Positions 42,522-60,459 of a stretch of DNA of 64,000 nt are shown here, one piece after another. Source of the stretch: Enterovibrio calviensis DSM 14347 (GTDB taxonomy: Bacteria > Pseudomonadota > Gammaproteobacteria > Enterobacterales > Vibrionaceae); contig NZ_KK211217.1 of the NCBI RefSeq assembly GCF_000621165.1, forward strand, positions 1 through 64,000, given 5' to 3'. The notes under the pieces are model-generated. The model searched no databases. It worked only from the letters and a program-made list of their open reading frames with translations, and was not told the origin of the DNA. Positions within the stretch are counted from its first letter, which is position 1. Every line of letters begins with the position of its first letter. Made by a program: the position numbers and the translations under genes.

Positions 42522-42833
42522 ATGAACATTGTTGCCATTACTGCCTGCCCTTCAGGTGTTGCCCATACTTACATGGCTGCTGAATCATTAGAACAAGCGG
42601 CGATTGCTCGCGGCTGGACAATTAAAGTTGAAACCCAAGGTGCGCTTGGCACAGAAAACGAAATCACATCAGACGATGTACAAAACGCTGATGCAGTTAT
42701 CGTGACGACAGACATTGAATTGGTTGGCATGGCGCGTTTCGAAGGCAAGGCTGTCATTGAAACCACAGTGAAAAAGTTAGTTGTAAATGCAGCTGAAATT
42801 CTTGATTCAGCCTGTGACGTAGCGGTGGCTTAA
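42522..42833 (+). CDS. Lone PTS EIIB component, fructose/mannitol family
   Basis: 103 residues starting MNIVAITACPSGVAHTYMAA behind ggagaagatc; an ATG five codons earlier lacks a ribosome-binding site. Cys9 in ITACPSG is the phosphorylation site, and the rest (KVETQGALG, then VIVTTDIEL) matches the EIIB of fructose-like permeases. No EIIC is fused or adjacent; the only EIIC of the window is in the minus-strand cluster at 57.8-59.3 kb, which already has its own EIIB. It leads the plus-strand glycan cluster, 2 bp before the beta-mannosidase start. Confidence 0.92.
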   Translation: MNIVAITACPSGVAHTYMAAESLEQAAIARGWTIKVETQGALGTENEITSDDVQNADAVIVTTDIELVGMARFEGKAVIETTVKKLVVNAAEILDSACDVAVA

Positions 42834-42835
42834 CC

Positions 42836-45292
42836 ATGACAATGTTGAAATTAGATGGCGAATGGACACTGACTTCTTTGGCGGATGCCACCATCGTTGC
42901 GCCCATCATGTTGCCAGGTGATGTACATAGCGCTTTGCTTGCCGCAGACATTATTCCAGACCCATATTTAGGCTGTAACGAAACCCAAGTGCAGTGGGTC
43001 GGCGAGCATGATTGGCGACTAGAAAAAACCTTCATTGCCGATGCCGATCTTCTCGACGCGAAAGCGGTCGATCTGATCTTGAACATGGTCGATACCATGG
43101 CCGAGATCGTGTTGAATGGTGAAACCATATTGCTATGCAGCAACATGTTCCGCCATTACCGCCGCGACGTTCGCCCATTCTTACGTGACGGTGAAAATAC
43201 GTTAAGAGTCACGCTTAAACGCGCAGACATTGAAGCCAAAGCGCGCGCTGAGCGTTTGCCTTTCCCAGTACCTTGGGCGGTTGGAAACAACCAAATTCCT
43301 CACATGAATACTTTGCGAAAAACACAGTGCCATTCAGGATGGGATTGGGGTATTTGTTTAATGGTGAGCGGAATTTACGACAGTATTCGTTTACAAGCGG
43401 TGTCGGAAGTTCGCCTGCAACAGGTGCGTTCAACGCAGCAATGGCACAGCGATGGTAGCTGTGATGTTACTGCGATTATTTCAGCCGAGAGCATCACCCC
43501 AGATGCTGCTGTTCAGATTGAATGTTGTTTGGTTAGCCCTGATGGCGAGCGCATGTCGCAATCCGTAGCCTTGATCAGCGCTGAGGTGGAATGCTGTTTT
43601 CGTGTGCCTCAGCCTAAACGCTGGTGGCCTGCAGGTTACGGACAGCAGCCGCTCTATACGCTGACAGTGATGACGGATGGCCAAACTATCGAGAAACGCT
43701 TGGGCCTTCGTGAGCTGTATTTAGAAACGGGCGAAGACGAGGTGGGCGCGGCGATGACATTTGTCGTCAACGACAAAGCCATCATGGCTAAAGGCGCGAA
43801 TTGGATACCGCTTGACGCAATGCCAAGTAGACAGACTCCTGACCACTACCGCCGTTTATTGGAAGATGCCAAAGCCGCCAACATGAACATGATCCGCGTT
43901 TGGGGTGGTGGCATGTATGAACGCGATACTTTCTACGACTTGTGTGACGAGTTAGGTTTGTTGGTGTGGCAAGATTTGATGTTCTCTTGCGCCTTATACC
44001 CATCAACACCGGATTTCCTTCGCGACGTAGAACAAGAGATCACCGAGCAAGTTCGTCGATTGAGCGATCACCCTTCACTGGCCTTGTGGTGCGGTGACAA
44101 CGAAGTGATCGGTGCGATCAATTGGTACCCAGAATCTCGTGCGAATCGCGAAAAATACGTGGTGAATTACGATCGTCTCAGCCGCGTTCTACAGGAAGTG
44201 GTTGAGCGCGAAGACACAAGCCGTCGCTTCTGGGCGAGCTCGCCATGTAACGGTGAGTTAGATTTTGGTGATGCGTGGCATGACGACAACAAAGGTGACA
44301 TGCACTTTTGGGATGTGTGGCATTCCGGTAAATCGTTCGATGCTTACAGCAGTATCAAGCCGCGTTTTTGTAGTGAGTTTGGTTACCAATCTTGGCCGTC
44401 ATTGCCAACCGTGAAAACCTTTGCGGCAGAAGAAGATTGGAACGTAACGTCTCCAACCTTTGAGCAACACCAGAAAAACGGTCGTGGTAATAGCATTATC
44501 ACTGAAATGTTTACCCGTTATTTCCGATTCCCGTCCAACTTCTCTCAGATGCTGTATTTGAGTCAGGTTCAACAAGCGCTGGCCATCAAAACGGCCAGTG
44601 AATACTGGCGTGCGAATAAGCCCGTTTGTCGTGGCATCTTGTATTGGCAGTTGAATGATTGCTGGCCAGTGAGTTCATGGTCGAGCATTGAATATACTGG
44701 GCGTTGGAAGCAACTTCACTACCATGCGAAGCGATTTTTCGCGCCACAACTGGCCGTGTTTATTGATGATGGTGAAACGCTAAAACTGAATGTTATCAAT
44801 GATGAACACCGTAAACTCGGCGCCAAGGGACAAGTGACCTGGTACGACTGGCAAGGTGAAGTGATTGATACGTGGCCGGTCGAAGCGACGCTGGAAGAAG
44901 ACGGTAACCAAGTGCTGTGGCAGTGCGATCGCAACGTGATCAACGAGCGCAAGCACGAAGGCTTCTTCCAAGTGGATATGGAATGCAATGGGCAAGCGTT
45001 AACGAATACATGGTTTGACGATGTGTATAAGCGCCTGCCGTTACCTCGTGCCAACGTAGAGGCTGATGTCATCGAGAAAAATGGCACGATGACCATCACG
45101 CTAACAACCGATAAACCTGCGTTCTTTGTTCATCCTGAACTTGAGGGAGAAGGACGTTTTAATGATTCAAGTTTTACCCTGATGCCATGTAGCCCAGTGA
45201 CGCTCACTTACACAGGTGATGCATCGGCAGAAGAAATTCGTTCGAAACTTTCGATTTATCACTTAGTGCAAAGCTATACCCTAACTCACTAA
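42836..45292 (+). CDS. Beta-mannosidase (GH2)
   Basis: 818 residues. The order of domains is a jelly-roll sugar-binding domain (about 1-175, with CHSGWDWGICLM typical of beta-mannosidases), an immunoglobulin-like domain (about 180-280), the TIM barrel with acid/base Glu423 in WCGDNEV and nucleophile Glu514 in FCSEFGYQSWPS, and C-terminal beta domains. It releases beta-linked mannose from non-reducing ends, for example from Man-beta1,4-GlcNAc. No signal peptide, so it should act in the cytoplasm on imported oligosaccharides. It follows the EIIB by 2 bp. The ABC transporter genes come next, after a hairpin. Confidence 0.93.
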   Translation: MTMLKLDGEWTLTSLADATIVAPIMLPGDVHSALLAADIIPDPYLGCNETQVQWVGEHDWRLEKTFIADADLLDAKAVDLILNMVDTMAEIVLNGETILLCSNMFRHYRRDVRPFLRDGENTLRVTLKRADIEAKARAERLPFPVPWAVGNNQIPHMNTLRKTQCHSGWDWGICLMVSGIYDSIRLQAVSEVRLQQVRSTQQWHSDGSCDVTAIISAESITPDAAVQIECCLVSPDGERMSQSVALISAEVECCFRVPQPKRWWPAGYGQQPLYTLTVMTDGQTIEKRLGLRELYLETGEDEVGAAMTFVVNDKAIMAKGANWIPLDAMPSRQTPDHYRRLLEDAKAANMNMIRVWGGGMYERDTFYDLCDELGLLVWQDLMFSCALYPSTPDFLRDVEQEITEQVRRLSDHPSLALWCGDNEVIGAINWYPESRANREKYVVNYDRLSRVLQEVVEREDTSRRFWASSPCNGELDFGDAWHDDNKGDMHFWDVWHSGKSFDAYSSIKPRFCSEFGYQSWPSLPTVKTFAAEEDWNVTSPTFEQHQKNGRGNSIITEMFTRYFRFPSNFSQMLYLSQVQQALAIKTASEYWRANKPVCRGILYWQLNDCWPVSSWSSIEYTGRWKQLHYHAKRFFAPQLAVFIDDGETLKLNVINDEHRKLGAKGQVTWYDWQGEVIDTWPVEATLEEDGNQVLWQCDRNVINERKHEGFFQVDMECNGQALTNTWFDDVYKRLPLPRANVEADVIEKNGTMTITLTTDKPAFFVHPELEGEGRFNDSSFTLMPCSPVTLTYTGDASAEEIRSKLSIYHLVQSYTLTH

Positions 45293-45308
45293 AGTATCTG
45301 GGAAGAAA

Positions 45309-45338
45309 AACCATTGGCGATCTTTGTCGCCAATGGTT
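45309..45338 (+). other. Hairpin between beta-mannosidase and the solute-binding protein gene
   Basis: A perfect 12-bp stem (aaccattggcga / tcgccaatggtt) with loop tctttg. No T-run follows on the plus strand, so it is more likely a message-stabilising or attenuating hairpin than a full terminator. A separate promoter for the transporter may lie in the 130 bp that follow. Confidence 0.6.
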
Positions 45339-45467
45339 CGGTTTCGTGCGCCTTAAGAACGGGAATTTGAAGAAAAATCACGTTAATCAGGGCAATAAAA
45401 ACCGTGTGAACCAGTGTTTTCTTGTGCAGGGATTTAGCAACAACGTCATTTGAAGTAAGGACACCCA

Positions 45468-47126
45468 ATGCTTAGCAAAACGAAACTTGCAGCCATTGTG
45501 CTTGCCGCTTTAACCGCACCAACCGCGATTGCCACAGAAAGACACGAGCTGACCATCGTGTCGGATTTCTATCCGACGATGATCAGAAACTTCAACCCTT
45601 TCCTGTCCACCACGCTGCGTACGACGACAGATTTCGTCTACGAGCCTTTGGTCATTTTCAACCAGATGCACGGGAACAAGCCGGTTATGCGTCTGGCGAA
45701 AGATTACTATCTTTCAGAAGACCTGATGCAGGTCACGTTTGAAATTCGAGAGGGCGTGAAGTGGTCAGACGGTAAACCGTTCACGGCAGAAGACGTTGTT
45801 TATTCATTTGCACTCATTAAAGAAAAGCCAGAGCTCGATCCTAAAGGCATGGACAACTGGGTCAAATCCGTCCGACAGGATGGCAATAAGGTTATTTTTG
45901 ACCTGACTGAGGTCAATACCAATGTCCCGTATGAAATCTCGACCATTCCAATTGTGCCAAAGCACATTTGGCAGAACATTGAAAAACCGGAGCTGTTCAC
46001 CAACGACAATCCAGTAGGTTCGGGGCCATTTACCGAAATCGACACCTTTACGCCTCAGCTTTATATTCAGTGTCGTAATCCGCATTACTGGGACAATGAC
46101 AATCTCGACGTCGATTGCTTACGTGTGCCTCAAATCGCTAACAATGATCAGTTGTTGAGTAAGGTCATCAAATCTGAATTGGATTGGAGTGGACACTTCA
46201 TTCCTGATGTCGACATGGTCTATGCAGCAAGAAGCCCTCACCACAAATACTGGTACCCAGCGGCGGGCCCTCAATCCTTCATGCTGAATTTCAAAACGCC
46301 GCACCCAGGCAACAATGAAGCGATTAACAACATCGACTTCCGTCGTGCGTTCTCTATGTCGATCGACCGTCAGAAAATCATCAATATTGCGTTTTACGGT
46401 AACGGCGTGGTGAACGATTACGCGTCTGGTCTTGGTCAAGTCTTCGATTTCTGGGCAAACCAAGACACCTATAACCAATACAAAAACTACAACACATTCA
46501 GCGTAGACAATGCGAAAGCGTTGCTTAAAGAAGCAGGATTTATCGATATCGATGGTGATGGTTTCGTTGAAACGCCTACCGGTCAGCAAATTGAGCTTGA
46601 ACTTCAATCTCCAACGGGGTGGACTGATTTCAATAATGCCGTCCAATTAGGGGTAGAGCAGCTTCAAAAAGTTGGCGTGAAAGCCAAAGCCCGTACCGCA
46701 GACTTCGCTGTGTACAACCAAGCAATGTTATCTGGCACTTATGACGTGGCGTATACCAACTACGTGATTGGTGCCGACCCTCATCGCTATTGGAACCGCG
46801 CTTTCCATTCTCGCTACCAAGAAGGAGCCAATGCGCCTCGCTATGCGATGCATTTCTTTAAGCATGAAGAGCTTGATGTCCTATTAGACAGTTTCTATAA
46901 AACGGACAAGCAAGAAGAGCAGATGCAAATCGCGCACAAAATCCAAAAAATCATCGCAGAGAATCAAGTCACGGTACCTGTGATGTCAGGTGTGGATGTG
47001 TATCAGTTCAATGAAAGCCGCTTCACGGGCTGGTGGAACGAAGCAAATCCAAAAGGTCGTCCAATGTCATGGGCGGGTGTACCTGAGCGTCTGTTGCATG
47101 TTCTGGATTTGAAACCTAAAGCCTAA
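45468..47126 (+). CDS. ABC transporter solute-binding protein (SBP_bac_5 family)
   Basis: 552 residues. A Sec signal peptide (about 1-22, ending PTAIA) without lipobox leads into the family 5 binding fold: DFVYEPLVIFNQM, then GVKWSDGKPFTAEDVVYSF, then RRAFSMSIDRQKI. Family 5 binds peptides, but a branch in Vibrio and Thermotoga binds oligosaccharides such as chitobiose, cellobiose or mannobiose; the gene layout here is like the Vibrio chitin-oligosaccharide transporter. Given the neighbours, a mannose-containing glycan or glycopeptide is the proposed ligand. Aromatic-rich segments (TYNQYKNYNTF, WANQDTYNQY) could stack on sugars. Confidence 0.88.
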   Translation: MLSKTKLAAIVLAALTAPTAIATERHELTIVSDFYPTMIRNFNPFLSTTLRTTTDFVYEPLVIFNQMHGNKPVMRLAKDYYLSEDLMQVTFEIREGVKWSDGKPFTAEDVVYSFALIKEKPELDPKGMDNWVKSVRQDGNKVIFDLTEVNTNVPYEISTIPIVPKHIWQNIEKPELFTNDNPVGSGPFTEIDTFTPQLYIQCRNPHYWDNDNLDVDCLRVPQIANNDQLLSKVIKSELDWSGHFIPDVDMVYAARSPHHKYWYPAAGPQSFMLNFKTPHPGNNEAINNIDFRRAFSMSIDRQKIINIAFYGNGVVNDYASGLGQVFDFWANQDTYNQYKNYNTFSVDNAKALLKEAGFIDIDGDGFVETPTGQQIELELQSPTGWTDFNNAVQLGVEQLQKVGVKAKARTADFAVYNQAMLSGTYDVAYTNYVIGADPHRYWNRAFHSRYQEGANAPRYAMHFFKHEELDVLLDSFYKTDKQEEQMQIAHKIQKIIAENQVTVPVMSGVDVYQFNESRFTGWWNEANPKGRPMSWAGVPERLLHVLDLKPKA

Positions 47127-47135
47127 GGCTATTCG

Positions 47136-47159
47136 GGAGCGCATGTTCGTATGCGCTCC
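47136..47159 (+). other. Hairpin after the solute-binding protein gene
   Basis: A perfect 9-bp stem (ggagcgcat / atgcgctcc) with a 6-nt loop and no strong T-run. Such hairpins after the binding-protein gene commonly keep its message more abundant than that of the permeases. Confidence 0.6.
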
Positions 47160-47251
47160 TTAGTTTCTCGTTAATCAACACCTATCAGCGTAATAAAAAT
47201 GGCTAAGCCTGTTTTTATATGCACCGGGTTAACTGTATCTGAGGATAAGGT

Positions 47252-48238
47252 ATGGCCTTTTTTCTTCGACGGCTTTCATTCTATTTAATGGCATTAATTT
47301 TTGCCGCCACATTGAATTTTATTTTGCCCCGCGCAATGCCTGGCGATCCGGTCACCATGATGTTTGCGAATGCAACGGCAGAGGTAACGCCAGAGCGTAT
47401 CGAATCCATGAAAAAGCTTCTTGGGTTTGTCGACGCGCCGTTGCCGCAGCAATATTTATCGTATTTGGCCAACATCTTCACCGGTAACTGGGGCATTTCC
47501 ATTAAGTACTTTCCCATTACGGTGAACGAGCTGTTGGCAAGTGCGGTTGGCTGGTCTTTGTTTCTAACAGGTTCTGCCATTGTTCTGGCTTTCTGTATTG
47601 GTTCGGTGCTTGGCATTTTTGCCGCGTGGCGTCGTGGCAGTCACTACGACTCCTTCATTTCGCCCAGCATGTTGGTGGTGCAATCTATTCCATCCGTGGT
47701 TGTCGCCATGTTGGTGCTTTACACCTTTGCGATAGGCCTTGAGTGGTTCCCTTCCGGCAACGCTTATACCGTGGGAACTCATCCCGACTGGGGCAGTTGG
47801 GAGTTCTACAAAGACGTCGGCTATCACGCTGTCTTGCCGTTGTTCTGTGCCACGATTGGCCAGATTGGTGGCTTCCTTATCAGCATGCGTAACAACATGA
47901 TCAATTTGCTCAATGAAGACTTCATTACAATGGCAAAAGCCAAAGGGTTGAGTGAAAACCGTGTTGTCTTCAATTACGCCGCCCGTAACTCCATGCTGCC
48001 AAGTGTCACTGCGTTGTCCATGGCGTTGGGGTCGGCCATCAGTGGTCAGTTGATTGTTGAAATGATTTTCAACTACCCAGGACTTGGCACTGTGTTGCTG
48101 AATGCCATCCATGCGCGTGATTACCAAGTGCTTCAAGGTCAGCTTCTACTCATGACCATGTTTATGTTGTTCTTCAACTTCTTGGCAGACTTGATGATCG
48201 TTTACCTCGATCCTCGTTTGCGCAAGGGAGGTAAATAA
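47252..48238 (+). CDS. ABC transporter permease (DppB/OppB type)
   Basis: 328 residues with about six membrane helices. The N-terminal FFLRRLSFYLMALIFAATL and PRAMPGDPV are typical of OppB-type permeases, and the cytoplasmic EAA loop is EDFITMAKAKGLSENRVV. It forms half of the membrane channel of the oligosaccharide/peptide importer. The next permease starts 2 bp later. Confidence 0.93.
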   Translation: MAFFLRRLSFYLMALIFAATLNFILPRAMPGDPVTMMFANATAEVTPERIESMKKLLGFVDAPLPQQYLSYLANIFTGNWGISIKYFPITVNELLASAVGWSLFLTGSAIVLAFCIGSVLGIFAAWRRGSHYDSFISPSMLVVQSIPSVVVAMLVLYTFAIGLEWFPSGNAYTVGTHPDWGSWEFYKDVGYHAVLPLFCATIGQIGGFLISMRNNMINLLNEDFITMAKAKGLSENRVVFNYAARNSMLPSVTALSMALGSAISGQLIVEMIFNYPGLGTVLLNAIHARDYQVLQGQLLLMTMFMLFFNFLADLMIVYLDPRLRKGGK

Positions 48239-48240
48239 TC

Positions 48241-49260
48241 ATGAAAGCGTTAATGAGATTACTCATTGGGAATAAGAAGTCTCTGGCTGGGCTTATTATT
48301 CTGATCATGTTTGCGTTGGTTGCCATCTTCGCGCCTGTTATCACCAAACACGCACCTGATGTGGGCACAGGCAACCCACACGAATACCCTGCGTTTATCG
48401 TGAAAGCCGCGCAGGAAAATCCAGAAGGTTGGATAGCAAAAAACCTCGCCAATAATCCTCGTCGTTTGATGATGTCTGAAGGGGCTGATCACGTCCTTGG
48501 CACATCGAGAATGGGCCGAGATATTTGGTCGCAGTTAGTTTATGGCGCAAGAACATCACTGGCAGTCGGCGTTGGGGCGGGTGTACTGGTGTGCTTTTTG
48601 GCAACAGCGATTGGCGTAACGGCAGGTTATTTCGGCGGTAAGGTTGATGATTATCTGTCGGCAGCCATGAACATCATGTTAGTGGTGCCGCAGTTACCGC
48701 TGCTCTTTATCATTGCCGCGTTTATTGGCGAGGCAGGCCCCGCCACTATTGCTGTGGTGATAGCCATCACTTCGTGGGCTTGGGGCGCTAGGGTGGTTCG
48801 AGCGCAGACGTTATCGGTGCGAGAGAAAGAATTCGTGCGTGCGGCAGAAGTGTTGGGCGAGAAAACGTGGCGCATTATTGCCGTCGAGATTCTCCCTAAC
48901 CTGATGTCGATTCTCGGCGCTAGCTTCATTGGTTGTGTGTTGCTCGCGATCATGACTGAAGCCAGCCTATCCTTCCTCGGGCTAGGTGATCCGAACTCCA
49001 TCAGTTGGGGCGTGATGCTCTACAACGTTCAAACCTCTTCATCCATGCTGATTGGCGCATGGTGGGAAATTCTGGCGCCTTGTTTTGCGTTGACCATGAT
49101 AGCGGTGGGCTTGTCGCTTCTTAACTTCGCGGTGGATGAAATCGCGAACCCACAACTGCGCTCACAGAAAGGCTTTCGCCTTTGGAAGAAACGCAACAAG
49201 TGGGAAAAATCGTCAGCTCGCGCAAAACGCCCAGTATTTGAAGAAGGACCGCACTCATGA
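48241..49260 (+). CDS. ABC transporter permease (DppC/OppC type)
   Basis: 339 residues. An N-terminal helix (about 16-33) is followed by a periplasmic loop with HVLGTSRMGRDIWSQLVYGARTSL and five more helices; the EAA loop is EKEFVRAAEVLGEKTWRII. It pairs with the preceding permease. Its end overlaps the next start (ATGA) by 4 bp. Confidence 0.93.
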   Translation: MKALMRLLIGNKKSLAGLIILIMFALVAIFAPVITKHAPDVGTGNPHEYPAFIVKAAQENPEGWIAKNLANNPRRLMMSEGADHVLGTSRMGRDIWSQLVYGARTSLAVGVGAGVLVCFLATAIGVTAGYFGGKVDDYLSAAMNIMLVVPQLPLLFIIAAFIGEAGPATIAVVIAITSWAWGARVVRAQTLSVREKEFVRAAEVLGEKTWRIIAVEILPNLMSILGASFIGCVLLAIMTEASLSFLGLGDPNSISWGVMLYNVQTSSSMLIGAWWEILAPCFALTMIAVGLSLLNFAVDEIANPQLRSQKGFRLWKKRNKWEKSSARAKRPVFEEGPHS

Positions 49261-50237
49261 CAACCCCTCAAATCTCGATACGCAATTTGTGTGTGGACTA
49301 CATCACCGATGCGGGTGATGTTCGCGCGGTGAATGATGTCAGCTTTGACATTGGTAAAGGTGAAGTGTTTGGGTTAGCCGGAGAGTCTGGCTGCGGTAAG
49401 TCAACGGTGGCCTTTTCACTGATGCGCTTGCACAAGCCCCCCGCGTATATCTCAAAGGGTGAAGTCTTTTTTGATGGTCATGGTGACTTGCTGAAGAAAT
49501 CCGAACAGGCCATGTCGCGTTTTCGTTGGAAAGAAGTGTCCATGGTATTTCAAAGTGCCATGAACGCGCTTAACCCTGTCTTGACCATGGAAGAGCAATT
49601 TTGCGACGTGATCATGCGCCATACCGATTTCACTCGTGATCAGGCGAAACGACGAGCAGAAGGCCTGCTGGAGATTGTCGATATTCACCCGAGCCGTTTG
49701 ACCGACTATCCGCATCAATTCTCTGGTGGCATGCGTCAGCGTTTGGTTATTGCAATCGCGTTAGCGCTGAACCCTAAAATGATCATCATGGATGAGCCGA
49801 CAACGGCACTGGATGTTGTGGTTCAACGCGAGATTTTGCAAAAGATCCATGCGCTGAAAGAAGAGTTTGGCTTCTCGATTTTGTTCATCACTCACGATCT
49901 GTCTCTGATGGTCGAATTCTCAGATCGTATCGGCATTATGTATGCCGGCGAGCTGATTGAGGTCGCGCCATCAAAGCAAATTCTGACCACGCCTTTTCAC
50001 CCGTACACAGAAGGATTGGGAAGTTCATTCCCGTCTCTAACGGGCCCTAAAACCCAATTGAAAGGCATTCCTGGTAGTCCACTTAACCTGTTTGATATTC
50101 CCACAGGCTGTCGCTTTCAAGCGCGCTGCGGCAAAACGCAATCGAGTTGTTTCACCCAATCAACTGCGCTGACATTGATTGAGCCGGGACGTTACTCAAA
50201 CTGCCATTTGTTTACTTCGCCAACGGCTAAGGGCTGA
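49257..50237 (+). CDS. ABC transporter ATP-binding protein (DppD/OppD type)
   Basis: 326 residues. Walker A is GESGCGKST, the signature FSGGMRQR, Walker B MIIMDEPTTALD and the switch histidine in FITHDLSL. The C-terminal cysteines (GCRFQARCGKTQSSC) are those seen in oligopeptide/oligosaccharide ATPases, where they may bind an iron-sulfur cluster. It energises import together with the next ATPase. Confidence 0.94.
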   Translation: MTTPQISIRNLCVDYITDAGDVRAVNDVSFDIGKGEVFGLAGESGCGKSTVAFSLMRLHKPPAYISKGEVFFDGHGDLLKKSEQAMSRFRWKEVSMVFQSAMNALNPVLTMEEQFCDVIMRHTDFTRDQAKRRAEGLLEIVDIHPSRLTDYPHQFSGGMRQRLVIAIALALNPKMIIMDEPTTALDVVVQREILQKIHALKEEFGFSILFITHDLSLMVEFSDRIGIMYAGELIEVAPSKQILTTPFHPYTEGLGSSFPSLTGPKTQLKGIPGSPLNLFDIPTGCRFQARCGKTQSSCFTQSTALTLIEPGRYSNCHLFTSPTAKG

Positions 50238-50247
50238 GGAGATACTT

Positions 50248-51240
50248 ATGAGTAAGCCAACAGGAAAACTCATTATCGAGGGCAAAAACCTCATCAAAGA
50301 TTTTGCCGTTAGCAGTAATTCGCTTCAGAAAACGAAGATGCGCGCCATCAATGACGTGTCATTCAAAATGTATAAAGGGCGCGGATTAGCCGTGGTGGGC
50401 GAGTCGGGTTCCGGCAAATCCACTACGGCAAAAATGATTGCCAAAATGTACCCGCCAACGGGTGGGAGCATCGAGTACTTCGGGCGTGATATTCAGTCAA
50501 TAACCAAGCGTGACGACCTGATGCTCTATCGTCAGGGCGTTCAAATGGTATGGCAGGATCCGTTTGGTTCGCTCAATCCTACCCATACGATTTTTCATCA
50601 CATTGCTCGCCCGCTTCTCATCCACAACAAGCTGGATGGAAGCGACAAGAAAGCGCTAGAGGACATGGTTTATGACTTGTTGCAGCAAGTCGGCCTAACC
50701 CCGCCTAAAGAGACTGCCGCCAAATACCCGCATCAGTTATCGGGTGGTCAGCGCCAACGTGTCAATTTGGCGAGAAATATAGCGGTGGGTGCGGAGGTGG
50801 TGTTGGCCGATGAGCCTACATCCATGCTTGATGTTTCGATTCGTGCCGGTGTTCTGAACCTGATGGAAGAGATGAAAGTGGAGCGTGAAATGGCACTGCT
50901 TTACATCACTCACGATATCGCGACTGCCCGTTATATCGCCGAGGACATCGCCGTGATGTATGTCGGTCACATGGTTGAGTGGGGCGATGTGGAGCAAATT
51001 ATCCATGATCCGCAGCACCCGTATACCCAATTGCTGGTATCAGCGGTGCCCGATCCTAGTAAATCGATTCATGAAAAGCTTAAAGGGAATCGCGGAGAGA
51101 TCCCGTTGTGGACGCCTGACAGTGTCGGTTGTCCGTTTGCAGGTCGGTGTTTACATGCCACGCCTAAGTGTAAGGAAGCTTTGCCTCCCGTTACTCAATT
51201 ATCAGAAAACCACTTTGTACGTTGTTATCTCTTCGACTAA
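50248..51240 (+). CDS. ABC transporter ATP-binding protein (DppF/OppF type)
   Basis: 330 residues from the ATG behind aggagatact; the frame is open 23 codons back into the previous gene without support. Walker A is GESGSGKST, the signature LSGGQRQR, Walker B VVLADEPTSMLD and the switch LYITHDIATA. A C-terminal cysteine motif (GCPFAGRCLHATPKC) is present. It is the partner ATPase of the heterodimer. 27 bp separate it from the aminopeptidase start. Confidence 0.94.
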   Translation: MSKPTGKLIIEGKNLIKDFAVSSNSLQKTKMRAINDVSFKMYKGRGLAVVGESGSGKSTTAKMIAKMYPPTGGSIEYFGRDIQSITKRDDLMLYRQGVQMVWQDPFGSLNPTHTIFHHIARPLLIHNKLDGSDKKALEDMVYDLLQQVGLTPPKETAAKYPHQLSGGQRQRVNLARNIAVGAEVVLADEPTSMLDVSIRAGVLNLMEEMKVEREMALLYITHDIATARYIAEDIAVMYVGHMVEWGDVEQIIHDPQHPYTQLLVSAVPDPSKSIHEKLKGNRGEIPLWTPDSVGCPFAGRCLHATPKCKEALPPVTQLSENHFVRCYLFD

Positions 51241-51267
51241 CACGTGATAACAACCGAGGACATTAGG

Positions 51268-52656
51268 ATGTTTCAACTAGCGTTTATTCGCGTCAAAGAC
51301 ACAGAGTGTCAAGCGACAAGAACTTTGCATTTGGCTGTAGGCGAAGGCAAATCACTGGACGTGAATCAGGATATTGATGGGTTCAACAGTGAAATCAAGA
51401 AGGCGACGTTTACTGTCGCAGACCTGCAAGATATTGGTTACCTGTTGGCATCAACGTTTAAGCGAGCGCAAACGCTTGAGCTTCATGTTGATGACGACGT
51501 GCTGTCTCTTCATGCCCCTGAAGTGTGGGTTAAGTGGGTGTCATTGGGGCTGGCGTTATCGTCTTACGATTACAAGCACAGAGACAGTTTCCATCTCGAG
51601 CCTGGCATCAATGCCTTTGAGCTAAAAACCGATGAAAAAACGCTATCTACGGCGTTTTTTGAAGGACAAGTTCTAGCACAAAGCCAATTGATTGCCCGTG
51701 AATTGGTGAACAAACCCGGCAACGTGATCTACCCAGAATCCTTCGTCAGTGCTGTAAAAGAACTACCAATGGAGAACACAAGCTTATCGTTTTTGACAGA
51801 AGCCGAAATGCGAGAGCAGGGGTTTGGTGGTCTGGTTTGTATTTCTCAAGGCAGTGACCGTGATGGTCGCATGCTGTGCTTGGATTACCATCCCGAAGGC
51901 GCAAAAACGACGATTGCGCTGGTCGGTAAAGGCGTCACCTTTGATACCGGTGGGATCAGCATCAAAGGCCAATTACGCATGAGTACCATGAAGGTCGACA
52001 TGGGCGGTGCGGCGGCGGTGGTTGGCGCATTGAATGCAATCGCTCAGTTACACCTTCCTGTTCGCGTGATTGGCTTGTGTGGTTTGGTTGAAAACATGCC
52101 GTCAGGCGGTGCTATCAAGCCGGGGGATGTCGTCACTATGTTGTCGGGTAAAAGCGTCGAAATTATCTCGACGGATGCCGAAGGACGCATGGTGTTGGCG
52201 GATGTGATGCACTACGCGCAGCAAACCTATCAGCCTGATTATTTGGTTGATATCGCCACACTCACTGGCGCAACGGGCGTTTCGTTAGGCAAGGCGTTTG
52301 CATCTTTGATGGGTAACAGTGATGAGCTGAAAACACTGGCCAAAACGGCGGGCAATAGCTGCTCAGAACCTTTGTGGGAAATGCCTATTAGTGCAGATCT
52401 TTTCGAAGCGTCGCTGAAAAGTGATTTCGCGGATGTTCGCCATGGCAGTGAAGATGGCGATGCAGGTGCGAGCGTGGCAGCGACTTTCCTTCATCACTTT
52501 GTGGCACCCGATCAGAAATGGATACACATCGATTCTGCGGCGATGTCTCTTGGTATGTCGCATCGAAAAATCTATCCAAAAGCGGCGTCAGGGTACGGCA
52601 CATTTTTGCTTACTTCGCTTTGCCAACATATTGCATCTTTGACGAATAACGAATAA
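51268..52656 (+). CDS. M17-family leucyl aminopeptidase-like protein
   Basis: 462 residues from the ATG behind gaggacattagg; a frame extension of eight codons is unsupported. The catalytic domain has the metal motifs VGKGVTFDTGGISIKG (Lys and Asp) and STDAEGRMVLAD (Asp and Glu) and MKVDMGGAAAVVGA. It removes N-terminal residues from peptides in the cytoplasm. The N-terminal domain is divergent from PepA. The placement directly before aspartylglucosaminidase suggests that it trims amino acids from imported glycopeptides, exposing the free Asn that the next enzyme needs. A 7-bp tandem repeat covers its stop codon. Confidence 0.88.
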   Translation: MFQLAFIRVKDTECQATRTLHLAVGEGKSLDVNQDIDGFNSEIKKATFTVADLQDIGYLLASTFKRAQTLELHVDDDVLSLHAPEVWVKWVSLGLALSSYDYKHRDSFHLEPGINAFELKTDEKTLSTAFFEGQVLAQSQLIARELVNKPGNVIYPESFVSAVKELPMENTSLSFLTEAEMREQGFGGLVCISQGSDRDGRMLCLDYHPEGAKTTIALVGKGVTFDTGGISIKGQLRMSTMKVDMGGAAAVVGALNAIAQLHLPVRVIGLCGLVENMPSGGAIKPGDVVTMLSGKSVEIISTDAEGRMVLADVMHYAQQTYQPDYLVDIATLTGATGVSLGKAFASLMGNSDELKTLAKTAGNSCSEPLWEMPISADLFEASLKSDFADVRHGSEDGDAGASVAATFLHHFVAPDQKWIHIDSAAMSLGMSHRKIYPKAASGYGTFLLTSLCQHIASLTNNE

Positions 52657-52690: not shown

Positions 52691-53617
52691 ATGATTTTGC
52701 TTGCCAACTCTGAAGCCTACCCTGGCATCGAAGAATCTGCTCGTCGCTTGCAAGCCGGTGAAGATGGCCTGATCTCGTTGATTGAAGGCATTAAATTGGT
52801 CGAACTCGACCCGCGTGTGCGTACTGTTGGCTACGGTGGCTGGCCTAACGTACTTGGCGAAATGGAGCTTGATGGCTCTGTAATGGATGGCGACAACTTG
52901 CGCACTGGTGCTGTTGGCGCTTTGAAAGGCTACATGCATCCCGTGGATGTTGCACACCGAGTGATGACAGACCTAAATCACGAGATTCTTGTGGGTGAGG
53001 GCGCGGCAATTTTCGCCAAAGAAATTGGCGCAGTCGCAGGCAACAACCTAATTGAAGACTCCAAGCAAGTCTGGTGGGAAAAGCTTGAGCAAGCGATGAC
53101 CCCTGAGGAACAAGCAGCATTTCCCAATGTACCGCTTGCTCCATTGTCCAATAACGCCACAGACCCAGAGCGTGTGCGCGATACCACTGTTTTTTTGAGC
53201 AGTGACATCAACAAAAAAATCAGTGTTGCCACGTCTACATCAGGCTGGGCATGGAAGTACCCGGGTCGTTTAGGTGACAGCCCAATTATTGGTGCGGGTT
53301 CTTACGCGGATAGTCGTTATGGCGCGTGTGCATGTACGCATACGGGTGAAATGGCAATTCGTTGTTCGACCTCCCACGCTGTAGTGCTTTACATGAAAAT
53401 GGGCATGAGTTTGGATGACGCTGTCTATGAAGCCATCAAAGACTTGGACTACCTAAAAGACGGGTACACCGAAGGCGTCACCATTCACGCGATTGACCGC
53501 TTCGGCAATCACAAAGTGGTGAGTCTCAATTGTCCTGGCAACATTACTTACTGGTTCTGGCAAACGGGCATGGATAAGCCTGAAGAGCGTCAGGCTGAAG
53601 TGATCTTCACGCGATAG
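52691..53617 (+). CDS. Aspartylglucosaminidase (N4-(beta-N-acetylglucosaminyl)-L-asparaginase)
   Basis: 308 residues. The ATG giving MILLANSEAYPG was chosen because aaggac lies at the right distance; an ATG seven codons earlier has none. It is an Ntn hydrolase that cuts itself before Thr165 in RDTTVF (human HDTIGM); other motifs are VGYGGWPN, STSGWAWKYPGRLGDSPIIG and ACTHTGE. It hydrolyses the GlcNAc-Asn bond of N-glycoproteins once the asparagine has free amino and carboxyl groups. No signal peptide is seen, so it should work in the cytoplasm, unlike many exported bacterial homologues. It is last in the plus-strand cluster, after the aminopeptidase. A plain isoaspartyl peptidase is less likely given the GYGGWPN and GRLGDSP blocks. 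Confidence 0.92.
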   Translation: MILLANSEAYPGIEESARRLQAGEDGLISLIEGIKLVELDPRVRTVGYGGWPNVLGEMELDGSVMDGDNLRTGAVGALKGYMHPVDVAHRVMTDLNHEILVGEGAAIFAKEIGAVAGNNLIEDSKQVWWEKLEQAMTPEEQAAFPNVPLAPLSNNATDPERVRDTTVFLSSDINKKISVATSTSGWAWKYPGRLGDSPIIGAGSYADSRYGACACTHTGEMAIRCSTSHAVVLYMKMGMSLDDAVYEAIKDLDYLKDGYTEGVTIHAIDRFGNHKVVSLNCPGNITYWFWQTGMDKPEERQAEVIFTR

Positions 53618-53637
53618 TTTCGCCATCAATGATCAAA

Positions 53638-53670
53638 TAAAAAGCCGCTTTTGATGAGCGGCTTTCTTTT
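53638..53670. terminator. Terminator between the two converging glycan operons
   Basis: A 9-bp stem (aaagccgct / agcggcttt) with a 7-nt loop followed by ctttt. It serves the aspartylglucosaminidase transcript and possibly the convergent RpiR gene. Confidence 0.82.
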
Positions 53671-53720
53671 CACTGTTATTCGGCTGTTGTTAGAGCGTCG
53701 TTGTTAGACGTTAACGCGGG

Positions 53721-54524
53721 TTATTTCCCAAATGGTGCTTCGGTCGACACCCAGTTTTTGATTGTCTCTCGGTCAAGCGATACATAGTGATAGTAGAGGT
53801 GATCGATAGCCATCAACATGGGCAGTTGCGCCGAAATCATGCCCGTACGCTCTTCGCCATTGAGCGAGGAGGTGAGCAAGGTTGCTGTCGCGGACTGTGA
53901 CATCTTCGATTTTGGATTCGCTGAAATCAGATAGGTTTCGATACCACGGCGTGTCAGGTTTTTCACTACCTTAGCCATGTCATCATTTTGCGCATTCAAA
54001 CTCAGCACGATCACTAGGTTATCGGTTGTCAAAATGTCTTGGTACATCTGCATCGAGTTTGTGTCTTGTACCACTTCAACGAACTTGCCGAGACGCCCAA
54101 ATCGAAACTTAAAGTCCGCCCCCGCGAGTGCACTGAAGCCCGTGCCGAACACATGAATGATTTGGTGTTTCGCGATAGCGTGGGTGATTTGGTTGATAAT
54201 GTCGCTATCAAGGCAGTGTTTCAGTTGCTGCAAGACATCGAAATAATCTTGATGAAGACCATCGTTTTCAGGTTTGGCGAGGGGGTTCGCGCTGTCCAAT
54301 TGTTCTTGGTAAAGAAACAGGAATTCTTTGAGGTTATTCAGGCCGATTTTTTGGCAAAAACGCGTAATGGAGGCTGTGGATACGCCAATGTCCGCCGCCA
54401 GCTCTTCAATGGTTTTGACAGGGCGACGTGCGAGAAAATAGTCCGCAACTTTGTTGTCGGTAGTGGTGAATTTGCTCCGTGCATATTCAAACAGCAATCC
54501 AATGTCTTTGTTCATCAGTACCAT
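53721..54524 (-). CDS. RpiR/MurR-family transcriptional regulator with SIS domain
   Basis: 267 residues. The N-terminal HTH_6 domain (about 15-75, EELAADIGVSTASITRFCQK) is joined to a SIS phosphosugar-binding domain (about 115-245, IHVFGTGFSALAGADFKFRF and VLSLNAQNDDMAKVV). Such proteins sense sugar phosphates, for example MurNAc-6P for MurR. It follows the alpha-mannosidase by 45 bp on the same strand and probably responds to a phosphorylated mannoside made by the neighbouring PTS. No clear ribosome-binding site is seen; ATG codons at 1 and 4 are both possible. Confidence 0.9.
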   Translation of the reverse strand: MVLMNKDIGLLFEYARSKFTTTDNKVADYFLARRPVKTIEELAADIGVSTASITRFCQKIGLNNLKEFLFLYQEQLDSANPLAKPENDGLHQDYFDVLQQLKHCLDSDIINQITHAIAKHQIIHVFGTGFSALAGADFKFRFGRLGKFVEVVQDTNSMQMYQDILTTDNLVIVLSLNAQNDDMAKVVKNLTRRGIETYLISANPKSKMSQSATATLLTSSLNGEERTGMISAQLPMLMAIDHLYYHYVSLDRETIKNWVSTEAPFGK

Positions 54525-54569
54525 AGGCCATCAATCATTCGCCCCACTACCGTAGGGCGAACGCTCCTC

Positions 54570-57233: not shown

Positions 57234-57268
57234 AAACCTGTCCGCTTTGGAATGCTATCCGTTGATGC

Positions 57269-57297
57269 GAAGGTGCGGCTCAGTGAGCTGCACCTTC
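57269..57297 (-). other. Hairpin between EIIA and alpha-mannosidase genes
   Basis: An 8-bp stem (gaaggtgc / gcaccttc) extended by gct/agc after one mismatch. No T-run. Probably a stabilising or attenuating hairpin that lowers alpha-mannosidase expression relative to the PTS genes. Confidence 0.5.
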
Positions 57298-57317
57298 ATG
57301 TCATTGGATATGTAAAC

Positions 57318-57764
57318 TCACGCAATTACGTGTTGAATGGTGTCTAAAATGGCTTGCGTATCGTTCTGTTGTAGTGTGTTTCGAATATCGGGTTTCATCA
57401 TGGCGCGCGACAACTTAGTCAGCATCACCAAGCTTTCTTCAGCGCCTGACTCTGGAATCGCTAACGACACTGCCGTGGTGACTGGTTCATCATCCATGGT
57501 TTCCCATTGGATAGGGTGGGCAAAGCGCACCACAAAAATCGCTGGTGTTTTCACATGGGAAGATTTGCAGTGTGGCACCGCTATTCCGCCGAGAAACCCT
57601 GTGCTGTCGTGAGACTCTCGCGCTTGTAAGCCACCTGCGAAGCCATCAATGCTGTCGATGTAGCCCAGTTGATGCGCGTGCGCAGCAATGAACTGAAAAG
57701 CTTGCTGCTGTGTCGTAGAGTGGGCATCAGTCAGAATATGTTCTGCGTTAAATACATTGCTCAT
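57318..57764 (-). CDS. PTS EIIA component, fructose family
   Basis: 148 residues of the PTS_EIIA_2 fold. The phosphorylated histidine is His65 in GGIAVPHCKSSHVKTP, and ESHDSTGFLGG precedes it. It takes phosphate from HPr and passes it to EIIB. It starts 5 bp after the EIIBC stop. In E. coli MngA these domains are fused into one EIIABC polypeptide; here they are separate. Confidence 0.93.
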   Translation of the reverse strand: MSNVFNAEHILTDAHSTTQQQAFQFIAAHAHQLGYIDSIDGFAGGLQARESHDSTGFLGGIAVPHCKSSHVKTPAIFVVRFAHPIQWETMDDEPVTTAVSLAIPESGAEESLVMLTKLSRAMMKPDIRNTLQQNDTQAILDTIQHVIA

Positions 57765-57769
57765 CAGGT

Positions 57770-59332
57770 TTATCCATTCACTGTGGTTGAGGCGGCAACA
57801 GCGGGTGTGACTGCTTCTTGCTGCATGGTGGTTGATGCTGCGCCCGCGTCTTTTGCATCAGCAACAGGCTGTTTAGAAGGGCGTCGCCAGAATCCGATAA
57901 TCATGGCCGTGGTTGCGATACCCGCGAAGGTACAAGCAATCCACGTTACGAAAGGAATCGGCTGCTCGATGTAACCGATGAACGTACCCAACGGAGAACC
58001 GATACCGCCATAGAATTTCACGTCCAAGTAGCCAACAAGGCCACCGGCTAGTGCTGAGCCGGCCACACTGGCGGTGATGATTTGAACGGGGTTCGCCGCA
58101 GCAAATGGAATTGCACCTTCAGTTACCCCGACAATGCCCATACCGAACGCGGAGTTTGCAGACACTTTTTCAGTGTCAGAGAAGCGGTTTTTGAACAGTT
58201 TTGACGCCAAGAAGATACCCAGCGGAGCAACAGAGATAGCCGCTTGCGCCGCAGTGCCTGGTACAAAGTTAGCGCCTTCAATGCCATATTTTGCAACGGT
58301 GTCTGTCCAAACGGCAGTACCGAAAATCAGTGCAGTTTTGTTGACTGGGCCGCCGAAGTCGAAGCCGATCATGGCACCGATAATGGCACCGATGATGAAG
58401 GTAGACGCGCCATACGTGTTGGTTAGCCAGTTTAGACCTTCATAGAGTGCACTCATTGCGCCAGCAATAGGTTGTCCAATGAAGTACAGCACCACAACGG
58501 TAATGAAGAAGGTCGCGATCAACGGGATGATCATGATAGGAACAAGCGGTTGAAGCAGTTTCGGCCATTTGATTTTCTTCAGGTACTTCACGAAGTAACC
58601 AACAAGGAAAGCAACAAGAATGGCTGATAGGAAGCCGCCACCTGCGTCGGTACCCAAGAATGCAGGGTCATTCGCCATGTATGCACCCAGCATCGCTGGA
58701 GCGATCGCGGGACGATCCGCGATGGAGTTTGCGACGAAGCCTGCAAACAGTGGGATCATTAGTAGGAAGCCGATCTGACCCACTTTGAACAAGTGCGCCA
58801 TGAAGTAACCGAGAGGTTCGGTTTGGTCAAAGCCCCACGCGACCATGCGGCCTAGGTCATCACGCTGGAAAGCGAAAATATTCGCGATGGCCAGCAACAA
58901 ACCCGCAGCAATAACCATGGGTACCATGTAAGAGATACCGCTCATGATGTGCTGAACAAAACCGTTCTCAGTGGTTTTACCCAAGGTCACGTTACCGACT
59001 TTTGTGCCTTTCGCACCAAAGACGGTCGCGTTTTCTTCTGCTTCTTTGATAAGTGCCATTGCGTCGCGAATCGCGGCTTTTGGACGTGCTTTGTAAACAC
59101 GTTTCCCTGCAAAGCGAGCAAGATCAATTTCAATATCAGAGGCGATGATCACTAGCTCTGCATCGTTAATTTCTTGTTCGGTCAGGATGTTTTGCGCACC
59201 GATTGAACCTTGGGTTTCAACCTTTACAAAAAAATTGTGTTCTTTGCCAGCTTGTTCAAGGGCTTCAGCTGCCATGTAGGTGTGCGCAATACCAGCAGCA
59301 CAGGCGGTAATCGCAACAACATTTTTGGTCAT
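57770..59332 (-). CDS. PTS EIIBC component, fructose/mannosylglycerate family
   Basis: 520 residues. An N-terminal EIIB domain (phosphorylation site Cys11 in VAITACAAGIAHTYMAAEAL) is joined to an EIIC domain from about 120 on with eight to ten membrane segments. Conserved EIIC blocks are GFDFGGPVNKTALIFG and MGIVGVTEGAIPFAAANP. It imports and phosphorylates a sugar, probably a mannoside, given the adjacent GH38 enzyme. A strong aaggagaac precedes the start. It leads the minus-strand operon EIIBC-EIIA-mannosidase-RpiR. Confidence 0.94.
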   Translation of the reverse strand: MTKNVVAITACAAGIAHTYMAAEALEQAGKEHNFFVKVETQGSIGAQNILTEQEINDAELVIIASDIEIDLARFAGKRVYKARPKAAIRDAMALIKEAEENATVFGAKGTKVGNVTLGKTTENGFVQHIMSGISYMVPMVIAAGLLLAIANIFAFQRDDLGRMVAWGFDQTEPLGYFMAHLFKVGQIGFLLMIPLFAGFVANSIADRPAIAPAMLGAYMANDPAFLGTDAGGGFLSAILVAFLVGYFVKYLKKIKWPKLLQPLVPIMIIPLIATFFITVVVLYFIGQPIAGAMSALYEGLNWLTNTYGASTFIIGAIIGAMIGFDFGGPVNKTALIFGTAVWTDTVAKYGIEGANFVPGTAAQAAISVAPLGIFLASKLFKNRFSDTEKVSANSAFGMGIVGVTEGAIPFAAANPVQIITASVAGSALAGGLVGYLDVKFYGGIGSPLGTFIGYIEQPIPFVTWIACTFAGIATTAMIIGFWRRPSKQPVADAKDAGAASTTMQQEAVTPAVAASTTVNG

Positions 59333-59403
59333 GAGGTTCTCCTTCTACGACCTTCAAATAGGGATTTGGCTGAGAGATGATGAAAACATTTCCAATTTAA
59401 GAC

Positions 59404-59419
59404 TGTGATTGAGCGCATA
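59404..59419. promoter_or_regulatory. Possible CRP site before the EIIBC operon
   Basis: TGTGATTGAGCGCATA has one perfect CRP half (TGTGA) and a 3-of-5 match in the other (TCACA). It lies 72-87 bp upstream of the EIIBC start, where cAMP-CRP activation of a PTS sugar operon would be expected. Weak on sequence alone. Confidence 0.33.
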
Positions 59420-59432
59420 TTAGTCATTTTGT

Positions 59433-59446
59433 TGTAAATATTTACA
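59433..59446. promoter_or_regulatory. Perfect 14-bp palindrome between EIIBC and araC-type gene
   Basis: TGTAAATATTTACA is a perfect palindrome in the middle of the 233-bp divergent region; an imperfect relative (tgtaaattttttcac) lies at 59488-59502. This is a good candidate operator for the RpiR regulator or another dimeric repressor. AraC proteins usually prefer direct repeats, so the AraC gene product is a less likely binder. Confidence 0.55.
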
Positions 59447-59565
59447 GTTAAATGGTGCACTCCATCATGGAAATATTCTCAGAAAGCTGTAAATTTTTTC
59501 ACCACAATCAGAGTAATTTTTATTCTGATGAATGAATTTTCACACCCAGCAGTGAGAGTGACACC

Positions 59566-60459
59566 ATGCCGCACACGACCAACCAGACCGATACATTTTC
59601 ATATTTGGTGCTTTCAGAGATCGCAGGTCGTTTAGAGGGAAAGCTAAATACCGAATGTCATTACGCGGTTCCATGCGGAGAGATGCCACTTCTCGCGTGG
59701 TGTACGCCCAATGAACGGGTAGATATCGTCGTCGAAGGTTCGGTAGACATGATGTACAGCCGAGGGAATGGTGAGCGAGGGTTGGTGCGCATGCTGCCTG
59801 GCGATGTGCTTCGCATTAAAGCTCACGGTTGGAATTTGCCTTATGCGAATGAGGCAAACACCCTGAGTATCTGCTGCCGTGGCGAAAAGCTAGGACTCAG
59901 TTACAACCATTGGCAAGATGGTCGTTGCATCAGTTTGGCAAAATGGGCCATGCCATTGACCTCTCTGAATGCGTTGTTGCTTGGCTTGACGTCTGAAGTG
60001 ACGGGCTTGAGTGATGTGAAACTTGATGTGTTATTGCAAGCCATTTCTCGAAAGCTAAGTGCCAGAGCTTCCGATGTCTCCAAACAAAAGCAGCTATTTC
60101 ATCAAATCCTAACCTACATGCGCTGCCATTTTCATGAGTCAATTTGTCGAGAGTCGGTGGCTGAGCATTTTTATATTTCAACGAGCTATCTTTCTCATCT
60201 GTTCCGACAGCACAGCGATATTGGCTTCAATGAATACATTAATCGAGAGCGCTTTGCCCACGCGAGGCATCTGTTGATAGAGAAAGGGTTGCGCGTTAAA
60301 CAAGTGGCGCTGGAAAGTGGATTCGTGGATGCAGATTACTTTTGTCGTCTATTTAAACGGCTCGCTGGGATGACGCCAACCCAATATCGCCAGCAATACA
60401 TCAGTCAGCAGCACCAATTTGTTCAAGAAGTTACGCAAGATTTTTCGGCTCGCTCCTAA
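59566..60459 (+). CDS. AraC-family transcriptional regulator
   Basis: 297 residues with a cupin-like sensing domain (about 30-110, RMLPGDVLRIKAHGW) and a C-terminal double helix-turn-helix (about 185-282, ESVAEHFYISTSYLSHLFRQ and KQVALESGFVDADYFCRLFK). It is divergent from the PTS EIIBC operon and likely an activator of it or of the plus-strand glycan genes in response to a free sugar or glycan. Followed after about 85 bp by the crr terminator. Confidence 0.9.
   Translation: MPHTTNQTDTFSYLVLSEIAGRLEGKLNTECHYAVPCGEMPLLAWCTPNERVDIVVEGSVDMMYSRGNGERGLVRMLPGDVLRIKAHGWNLPYANEANTLSICCRGEKLGLSYNHWQDGRCISLAKWAMPLTSLNALLLGLTSEVTGLSDVKLDVLLQAISRKLSARASDVSKQKQLFHQILTYMRCHFHESICRESVAEHFYISTSYLSHLFRQHSDIGFNEYINRERFAHARHLLIEKGLRVKQVALESGFVDADYFCRLFKRLAGMTPTQYRQQYISQQHQFVQEVTQDFSARS

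Follow-up and report, generated by a model that had tools for sequence, protein, structure and literature searches.

The bond between N-acetylglucosamine and asparagine (GlcNAc-Asn), the last in N-glycoprotein breakdown, seems little studied in bacteria. In a literature search that covered subscription journals thinly, the only bacterial glyco-asparagine pathway found was that of Lacticaseibacillus casei, whose alf-2 genes form an intracellular route for Fuc-GlcNAc-Asn, as described in the accessible part of the source (PMC6960285). A Cutibacterium acnes locus with glycoside hydrolases (GH) of families GH38, GH5_18 and GH20 has been proposed to act on the Man3GlcNAc2 core in the cytoplasm, again by the accessible text (PMC6160142). 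Here we analysed a 64,000-nucleotide stretch of Enterovibrio calviensis DSM 14347 (NZ_KK211217.1; hereafter the window), part of contig 2 of a 5.5-Mb genome (G000) whose closest named relatives are Enterovibrio. It holds an island of genes that probably allows a bacterium of marine, fish- or coral-associated type to import and dismantle sugar-asparagine stubs from digested glycoproteins.

Genes and families were assigned from open reading frame (ORF) calls with Pfam and NCBIfam. The forward strand carries, in order, a phosphotransferase system (PTS) EIIB, a GH2 enzyme, an ABC binding protein, two permeases, two ATPases, an M17 peptidase and an aspartylglucosaminidase-family (Asparaginase_2) enzyme, hereafter AGA. 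The reverse strand carries EIIBC, EIIA, GH38 and RpiR genes, and a forward-strand AraC gene points away from EIIBC (Table 1). This gene content and its coordinates bear out the initial annotation, as do the two converging operons, with a terminator-like hairpin between them, and the flanks, a Dyp-type peroxidase gene (yfeX) on one side and crr-ptsI-ptsH on the other. The hydrolases had been described as lacking a visible signal peptide, and by eye we found one on the binding protein and none on GH2, M17, AGA or GH38. Motif strings typical of the catalytic centres were found in GH2, M17 and GH38, with both catalytic Glu motifs in GH2.

The ABC-M17-AGA genes form a conserved unit. We read the loci of the best 80 of 416 AGA relatives from a scan and classed their transporters by translated BLAST against single representatives, adding Pfam for a few representative cases. 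A block with an importer of the window's type, that of the chitooligosaccharide-binding protein (CBP), was present in 21 of the 80 (Enterovibrio, Photobacterium, Vibrio renipiscarius, Aliivibrio), a CUT1 sugar ABC importer in 11 (Serratia, Pasteurellaceae, one Photobacterium), an amino-acid-type ABC importer in 39 (Rhizobiales, Thalassospira, some Vibrio, others) and a POT permease in 4 (Francisella, two Neisseriales-type metagenome-assembled genomes and one from Fusobacteria). Five had no transporter class by the rule used, including L038, where the CBP block is in pieces. M17 accompanied AGA in all 21 CBP-type and all 11 CUT1 loci and in none of the 39 amino-acid ABC or 4 POT loci, which can be read as a need for M17 wherever a peptide-bearing glycan is imported. 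The window's M17 is 52–69% identical to the AGA-linked M17s of six loci and 37–40% to two other M17s of relatives, presumed to be PepA. GH2 was found in 14 of the 21 CBP-type loci and in no CUT1, amino-acid ABC or POT locus. The idea that the gene set co-occurs elsewhere therefore stands for the block of binding protein, permeases, M17 and AGA, which recurs in four Vibrionaceae genera, but not for GH2, which often occurs without AGA.

Judged by its residues, the window's substrate-binding protein (SBP) has a predicted chitobiose-type binding site. It matches the V. cholerae chitin oligosaccharide-binding protein 1zty over nearly the whole mature length (863 bits) and is 67% identical to V. cholerae CBP, 65% to VhCBP and 57% to the genome's own second CBP. 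That paralogue lies on contig C11 (L148) with GH9, a BadF-type kinase, GH20, GH94 and a phosphohexose mutase, which we read as a chitobiose operon; the window SBP is not linked to GH9, GH20 or GH94. In VhCBP, according to the accessible part of PMC8449061, the ligand sits with its non-reducing end innermost and its reducing end loosely held; mutations of W363, D365 and W513 cause some of the largest binding losses, F437 and F411 surround the site-2 N-acetyl group, R436 was targeted but its mutant was not obtainable in quantity, and S221A shifts (GlcNAc)2 binding by only 0.1 kcal/mol. Because the reducing end is loosely held there, the window SBP may have room for an asparagine tail. Aligned at the positions mutated in VhCBP, 22 AGA-linked SBPs (L038 omitted from the residue table) all keep W363, D365, N409, R436, W513 and N204 and all replace S221 by Ala or His, with His in the window and Ala in L033; F411/F437 are Val/Tyr in the window, L036, L037 and L050 and Phe in the other 18. 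ATPase D is 85% identical to its counterpart in the genome's chitobiose operon, and within this genome the block ATPases and those of the chitobiose importer are 80–85% identical.

Other features of the importer were also recorded. The two block ATPase genes are missing from 12 of 22 CBP-type AGA loci (L038 counted; missing in L039–L048, L053 and L065), where the ABC system may rely on chitobiose-importer ATPases instead. A terminator-like hairpin at 47135–47160 separates the gene for the binding protein from that for the first permease, an arrangement often seen when the binding protein is produced in excess. Two more distant CBP-like SBPs are encoded on contigs 19 and 4 of G000 (L156 and L157; 37% and 34% identity), the one on contig 4 with its own permeases and ATPases and an adjoining 1151-aa protein.

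The AGA has the N-terminal nucleophile (Ntn) Asparaginase_2 fold, including a catalytic Thr preceded by Asp, and its predicted fold is glycosylasparaginase-like. Glycosylasparaginase (GA) is the best PDB match both by sequence and by predicted model, the model having been compared with Foldseek-preselected chains, so families outside that list may still match. Motifs were counted in 62 sequences, namely the window's and 61 co-clustering AGA ORFs; the other 19 loci had no AGA ORF in the cluster, apparently because the greedy ORF pick favoured longer antisense frames. T172, T190, R200, D203 and T223 are invariant in all 62, as are N13 and E15 in the N-terminal stretch and W58 elsewhere (register by eye; the GA row began at residue 20). 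In GA, the Asn alpha-groups and the oxyanion are held by R180, D183, T203 and G204; where GA has G204, 60 of the 62 sequences have His. The AGA clade is monophyletic (98/96, 11 rows) and separate from EmGA and IaaA, with long branches.

A CutC-family gene lies 0.9–3.1 kb from AGA in 30 of the 80 loci (L055, L056, L062, L066–L068, L070, L073, L075–L077, L079–L081, L085–L087, L089, L091, L094–L096, L098, L099, L101, L102, L105, L106, L110 and L111), from Rhizobiales, Vibrio, Thalassospira, Francisella, Pasteurellaceae and others. By setting, these are 25 of 39 amino-acid ABC, 3 of 11 CUT1, 1 of 4 POT, 1 of 5 unclassed and 0 of 21 CBP-type loci. The proximity suggests a part for CutC in breaking down glyco-asparagine, with 1-amino-GlcNAc as a possible substrate. 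As an AGA-specific partner within Vibrionaceae CutC was dropped, being found in 68 of 100 relatives regardless of AGA and in no CBP-type locus; in the window's genome it is on another contig. In four Pasteurellaceae loci (L055, L056, L062 and L064), a gene for a GHL6/fucosidase-like hydrolase (Pfam for L056 only) directly follows AGA, and its product possibly acts on core fucose.

One link to N-glycans comes from GH92, an alpha-mannosidase family. The AGA clade occurs in 13 of 100 relatives (whole in 12, in two pieces in G006), and GH92 is present in 11 of these 13 genomes versus 2 of the 87 others; within the genus, the association is 9 of 10 versus 1 of 8 (p 0.002). GH92 lies ≤10 kb from AGA in 6 of 21 CBP-type loci (Pfam for one). 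On contig 1 of the window's genome, at about 30–43 kb (L149, L150), five GH92 genes stand in tandem, their N-termini lipobox-like by eye. PTS EIIC-EIIB-AraC genes flank them on one side and a gene for a multiphosphoryl PTS protein (HPr-EI-EIIA fusion) on the other; we regard this as a PTS-linked cluster of putative surface mannosidases. In G052, a single run comprises EIIC-EIIB-AraC-GH2-SBP-permeases-M17-AGA, remnants of GH92 come shortly after it, and GH92, EIIB and a multiphosphoryl protein follow about 19–26 kb beyond it. The window itself holds an alpha- and a beta-mannosidase together with an importer, the combination looked for in an N-glycan locus, and the best solved relatives of its GH2 are beta-mannosidases. 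The conserved block, the chitobiose-type SBP, the GH92 co-occurrence and the glycosylasparaginase-like model support an N-glycan/glyco-asparagine theme for the ABC-M17-AGA block.

From this we infer an imported substrate, an order of reactions and a role for the GH38-PTS half. Surface lipoprotein GH92 mannosidases would trim high-mannose glycans and proteases would cleave the protein, so that Man-beta1,4-GlcNAc(2)-Asn stubs and short glycopeptides remain. Going by homology and conserved residues, the SBP would hold a non-reducing Man-GlcNAc or GlcNAc-GlcNAc in sites 1 and 2, its open reducing-end side would accommodate the asparagine tail, and the ABC importer would take up the stub. In the cytoplasm, GH2 would take off the beta-mannose, M17 would strip residues N-terminal to Asn to give a free alpha-amino group, and the AGA-family enzyme would split the GlcNAc-Asn amide into Asp and 1-amino-GlcNAc(2), which would decay to GlcNAc(2) and ammonia; the chitobiose released could feed the genome's own GH20/GH94 operon. 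More speculatively, small alpha-mannosides might enter as phosphates through the fructose-type PTS and be acted on by GH38, which would give the mannose arms a second route. We consider it reasonably likely that Man-GlcNAc(2)-Asn-type stubs are taken up and broken down in the cytoplasm by way of the ABC-M17-AGA block, and give the scheme including the GH38-PTS route somewhat less than an even chance.

The island was assembled in modules at one site. In three genus relatives (L171–L173), yfeX, GH2 and the crr-ptsI block are contiguous, and the window's 45.2–60.5 kb has no counterpart. In L154 (G005) and L155 (G010), the order is yfeX-EIIB-GH2-RpiR-GH38-EIIA-EIIBC-AraC-crr, and the alignment ends at window position 45186 and restarts at 53706–53721, so that the ABC-M17-AGA block is missing at that place; both genomes carry it on another contig. 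The ABC-AGA block lies away from yfeX-crr in L152 and L153. The window's EIIB is 92% identical to the EIIB preceding GH2 in L154 and 52% to that of its own GH92 cluster. On the simplest reading, the island would consist of a resident GH2 and two added modules, loss in some lineages being also possible. The initial annotation had seen accessory DNA between yfeX and crr, which fits the two modules, given the empty sites in relatives, but not GH2, apparently already resident. What was taken for a single island would likewise be two separable modules beside that gene, and the N-glycan/glyco-asparagine theme is retained for the ABC-M17-AGA block. Copies of GH2, GH38, AGA or SBP are fragmented in G001, G006, G029 and L038, through assembly faults or decay.

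The interval between EIIBC and AraC holds two palindromes, TGTAAATATTTACA, a putative operator; 0.25 were expected, and 3 of 100 shuffles reached the number found. A match with ≤2 mismatches is present in this interval in all five of the relatives read that share the arrangement (L036, L038, L050, L154 and L155) and not in L158, which has no AraC there. The window's AraC is 26% identical to the AraC of its own GH92 cluster.

The GH38-PTS half could instead serve mannosylglycerate, a compatible solute, as E. coli MngA/MngB do, and simply lie next to the AGA block. MngB is the only NCBIfam match of the GH38 (746 bits), EIIBC is 30% identical to E. coli MngA, which EIIA also matches, and PTS and GH38 are laid out as in mngA-mngB. 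However, the GH38 score falls below the curated cut-off of 1138 bits and its identity to MngB of E. coli, the one characterised system compared, is only 34%. A better MngB exists in a separate clade, assigned for nine loci from relatives by identity, which is 56–66% identical to E. coli MngB and 33–35% to the window's GH38; the two clades coexist in G001, G005, G006 and G012 (36–37% matches). GH38 of the window clade occurs in 11 of the 100 relatives, all 11 with AGA, whereas the MngB clade occurs in 5 of 13 AGA genomes and 9 of 87 others, five of these assignments (G001, G005, G006, G012 and G051; 35–37% matches) being by score only. In 6 of the 11, GH38 and AGA are on different contigs; both places were read for G005 and G010. 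Since its identity to MngB is low, its score lies under the cut-off and its clade occurs only with AGA, the GH38 is not simply part of a mannosylglycerate system; plain MngAB was lowered after the E. coli comparison and the co-occurrence counts, and we now consider it somewhat unlikely. The initial assignment of GH38 and the PTS to N-glycan breakdown agrees with the 11 of 11 co-occurrence, but the GH38 is not MngB, and its link to the pathway is one of co-occurrence.

Chance could have brought unrelated catabolic modules together at one permissive site between yfeX and crr. The site did gain two modules stepwise, the ABC-AGA block has other locations in L152 and L153, and no shared operator was found; yet the recurrence of the ABC-M17-AGA block in other genera indicates a grouping beyond chance, G052 has GH2, this block and PTS genes in one run with GH92 nearby, and GH38 and AGA co-occur even when on different contigs, which together make chance assembly unlikely. 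Alternatively, the AGA might cleave beta-aspartyl (isoaspartyl) dipeptides and the ABC system might import oligopeptides, in the manner of E. coli iaaA, which adjoins gsiA of the glutathione ABC importer. The enzyme belongs to the same Ntn family, NCBIfam matches it to beta-aspartyl-peptidase alone (109 bits; cut-off 567), the operon includes an M17 peptidase and the ABC family is Opp-like; still, we judge this function improbable. A block for chitin or plant-mannan oligosaccharides, with AGA and M17 incidental, would suit the CBP-type importer, and GH2 beta-mannosidases cleave beta-mannosides in general. But the genome has a chitobiose-type operon at another place, the SBP is always accompanied by M17 and AGA in the AGA-selected set of 21 loci and only variably by GH2, and GH92, which co-occurs, is an alpha-mannosidase family; this explanation appears very unlikely.

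Several observations weigh against the import and breakdown of glyco-asparagine stubs. The AGA model has a predicted local distance difference test (pLDDT) score of <50 at 204–208, adjoining R200 and D203, and the clade likely lacks the W11-type tryptophan of glycosylasparaginases (register set by eye), W11 being the Trp at their substrate cleft. The AGA clade is also a deep branch of its own, so the description of the enzymes as lysosome-like survives as an analogy, in which the predicted model fits glycosylasparaginase best but the lineage is distinct. GH2 is not diagnostic, because it stands at the yfeX-crr site without the rest in relatives and 22 of its 35 occurrences among the 100 relatives are without AGA (22 of 87 non-AGA genomes); in 7 of 21 CBP-type loci it is outside the locus read. 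G001 and G029 have AGA without GH92, G007 and G075 have GH92 without AGA, and the Fisher p values overstate independence because the relatives are phylogenetically close. GH85 endoglycosidase was found in 0 of 100 relatives (its control matched in Lactococcus lactis; GH18 was not searched for) and PNGase F in 0 of 100, but with a control that matched nowhere; GH99, as a disaccharide source for the PTS, was found in 0 of 14 genomes, uninformatively, as its control also matched nowhere. There is no sign of a shared regulon, because the palindromes, which in the window occur only at the PTS/AraC promoter, are absent from L148–L151 (GH92 cluster and chitobiose operon); upstream-region alignments had no visible shared block either, and the idea of a common regulon was dropped. 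A mannose-specific site 1, considered from the S221 change, was given less weight because S221A barely alters binding in VhCBP, and the change is not proof of a mannose site. The argument from M17 is weakened because pepV of L. casei, beside the glycosylasparaginase gene, is not required for growth on glyco-asparagine, as stated in the accessible part of PMC6960285.

Table 1. Features of the island, with window positions, strand and supporting evidence
Feature	Position	Strand	Evidence
PTS EIIB, stand-alone, fructose type, 103 aa	42522..42833	+	PF02302 74 bits
GH2 exo-beta-mannosidase (predicted), 818 aa	42836..45292	+	Pfam GH2/mannosidase Ig domains; 6bye/6byc 523 bits
ABC binding protein, chitooligosaccharide-binding type, SBP_bac_5, 552 aa	45468..47126	+	863 bits to 1zty
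ABC permease B	47252..48238	+	BPD_transp_1
ABC permease C	48241..49260	+	BPD_transp_1, OppC_N
ABC ATPase D	49257..50237	+	ABC_tran, oligo_HPY
ABC ATPase F	50179..51240	+	ABC_tran, oligo_HPY; ORF from first start codon, true start probably further in
M17 aminopeptidase, AGA-linked clade	51244..52656	+	PF00883 352 bits
Aspartylglucosaminidase-family Ntn hydrolase (AGA), 315 aa	52670..53617	+	PF01112 184 bits
Terminator-like hairpin separating the converging operons	53641..53665	+	
RpiR-family regulator with SIS domain	53721..54524	-	HTH_6, SIS
GH38 alpha-mannosidase, clade distinct from MngB, 887 aa	54570..57233	-	Pfam GH38 domains
PTS EIIA, fructose type	57318..57764	-	PTS_EIIA_2
PTS EIIBC, fructose/mannosylglycerate superfamily	57770..59332	-	PTS_IIB, PTS_EIIC
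Two palindromes TGTAAATATTTACA (one exact, one with 2 mismatches), putative operator of divergent PTS/AraC promoter	59433..59501		
AraC-family regulator	59566..60459	+	HTH_18

We tentatively propose that Vibrionaceae have adapted a chitobiose-type ABC importer to N-glycan stubs bound to Asn or a short peptide, with M17 exposing the Asn for a new glycosylasparaginase clade. Combination of this AGA clade with three other importer types (CUT1, amino-acid ABC and POT) in other bacteria, mostly Proteobacteria, would make glyco-asparagine a widespread bacterial nutrient. A new AGA-tracking GH38 clade would act on PTS-imported phospho-alpha-mannosides, and CutC could be a further member, e.g. on 1-amino-GlcNAc. 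If true, this would be an ABC-based glyco-asparagine route in marine Gram-negative bacteria; it would give a concrete ligand prediction for a well-studied binding-protein class, tie tandem GH92 to a downstream cytoplasmic route, suggest a testable role for the CutC family and turn the lysosome analogy into a pathway testable gene by gene. Within the literature coverage stated above, we found no paper joining a chitobiose-type ABC importer, M17, AGA and mannosidases, and none on N-glycan loci in Enterovibrio or Photobacterium.

Compared with known systems, the window resembles E. coli mngR-mngA-mngB in having a fructose-type PTS and a GH38 in one unit, but its EIIA and EIIBC are split, it has an extra EIIB and a GH38 of another clade, and its regulators are RpiR and AraC, whereas mngR encodes a GntR-type regulator. 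Its SBP is 65–67% identical to those of the Vibrio chitooligosaccharide ABC importers, with key residues kept, but is accompanied by M17-AGA rather than GH9/GH94 and is changed at positions 221, 411, 412 and 437 (PMC8449061, accessible part). The C. acnes locus likewise combines cytoplasmic GH38 and a beta-mannosidase with sugar ABC genes; its beta-mannosidase is a GH5_18, its chitobiose is cut by GH20, and the accessible text of PMC6160142 mentions no glycosylasparaginase, peptidase or PTS. The same text mentions the N-glycan cluster of Xanthomonas campestris, which, as far as that mention goes and not gene by gene, shares a GH2 beta-mannosidase with the window. L. casei alf-2, by the accessible part of its description, shares glyco-asparagine import (proposed here), an intracellular glycosylasparaginase (AsnA2 there), an adjacent peptidase gene and a regulator of its own; that Gram-positive system uses a major facilitator superfamily permease, an alpha-fucosidase and the M20 peptidase PepV, where the window has a chitobiose-type ABC importer, a beta-mannosidase and M17 instead.

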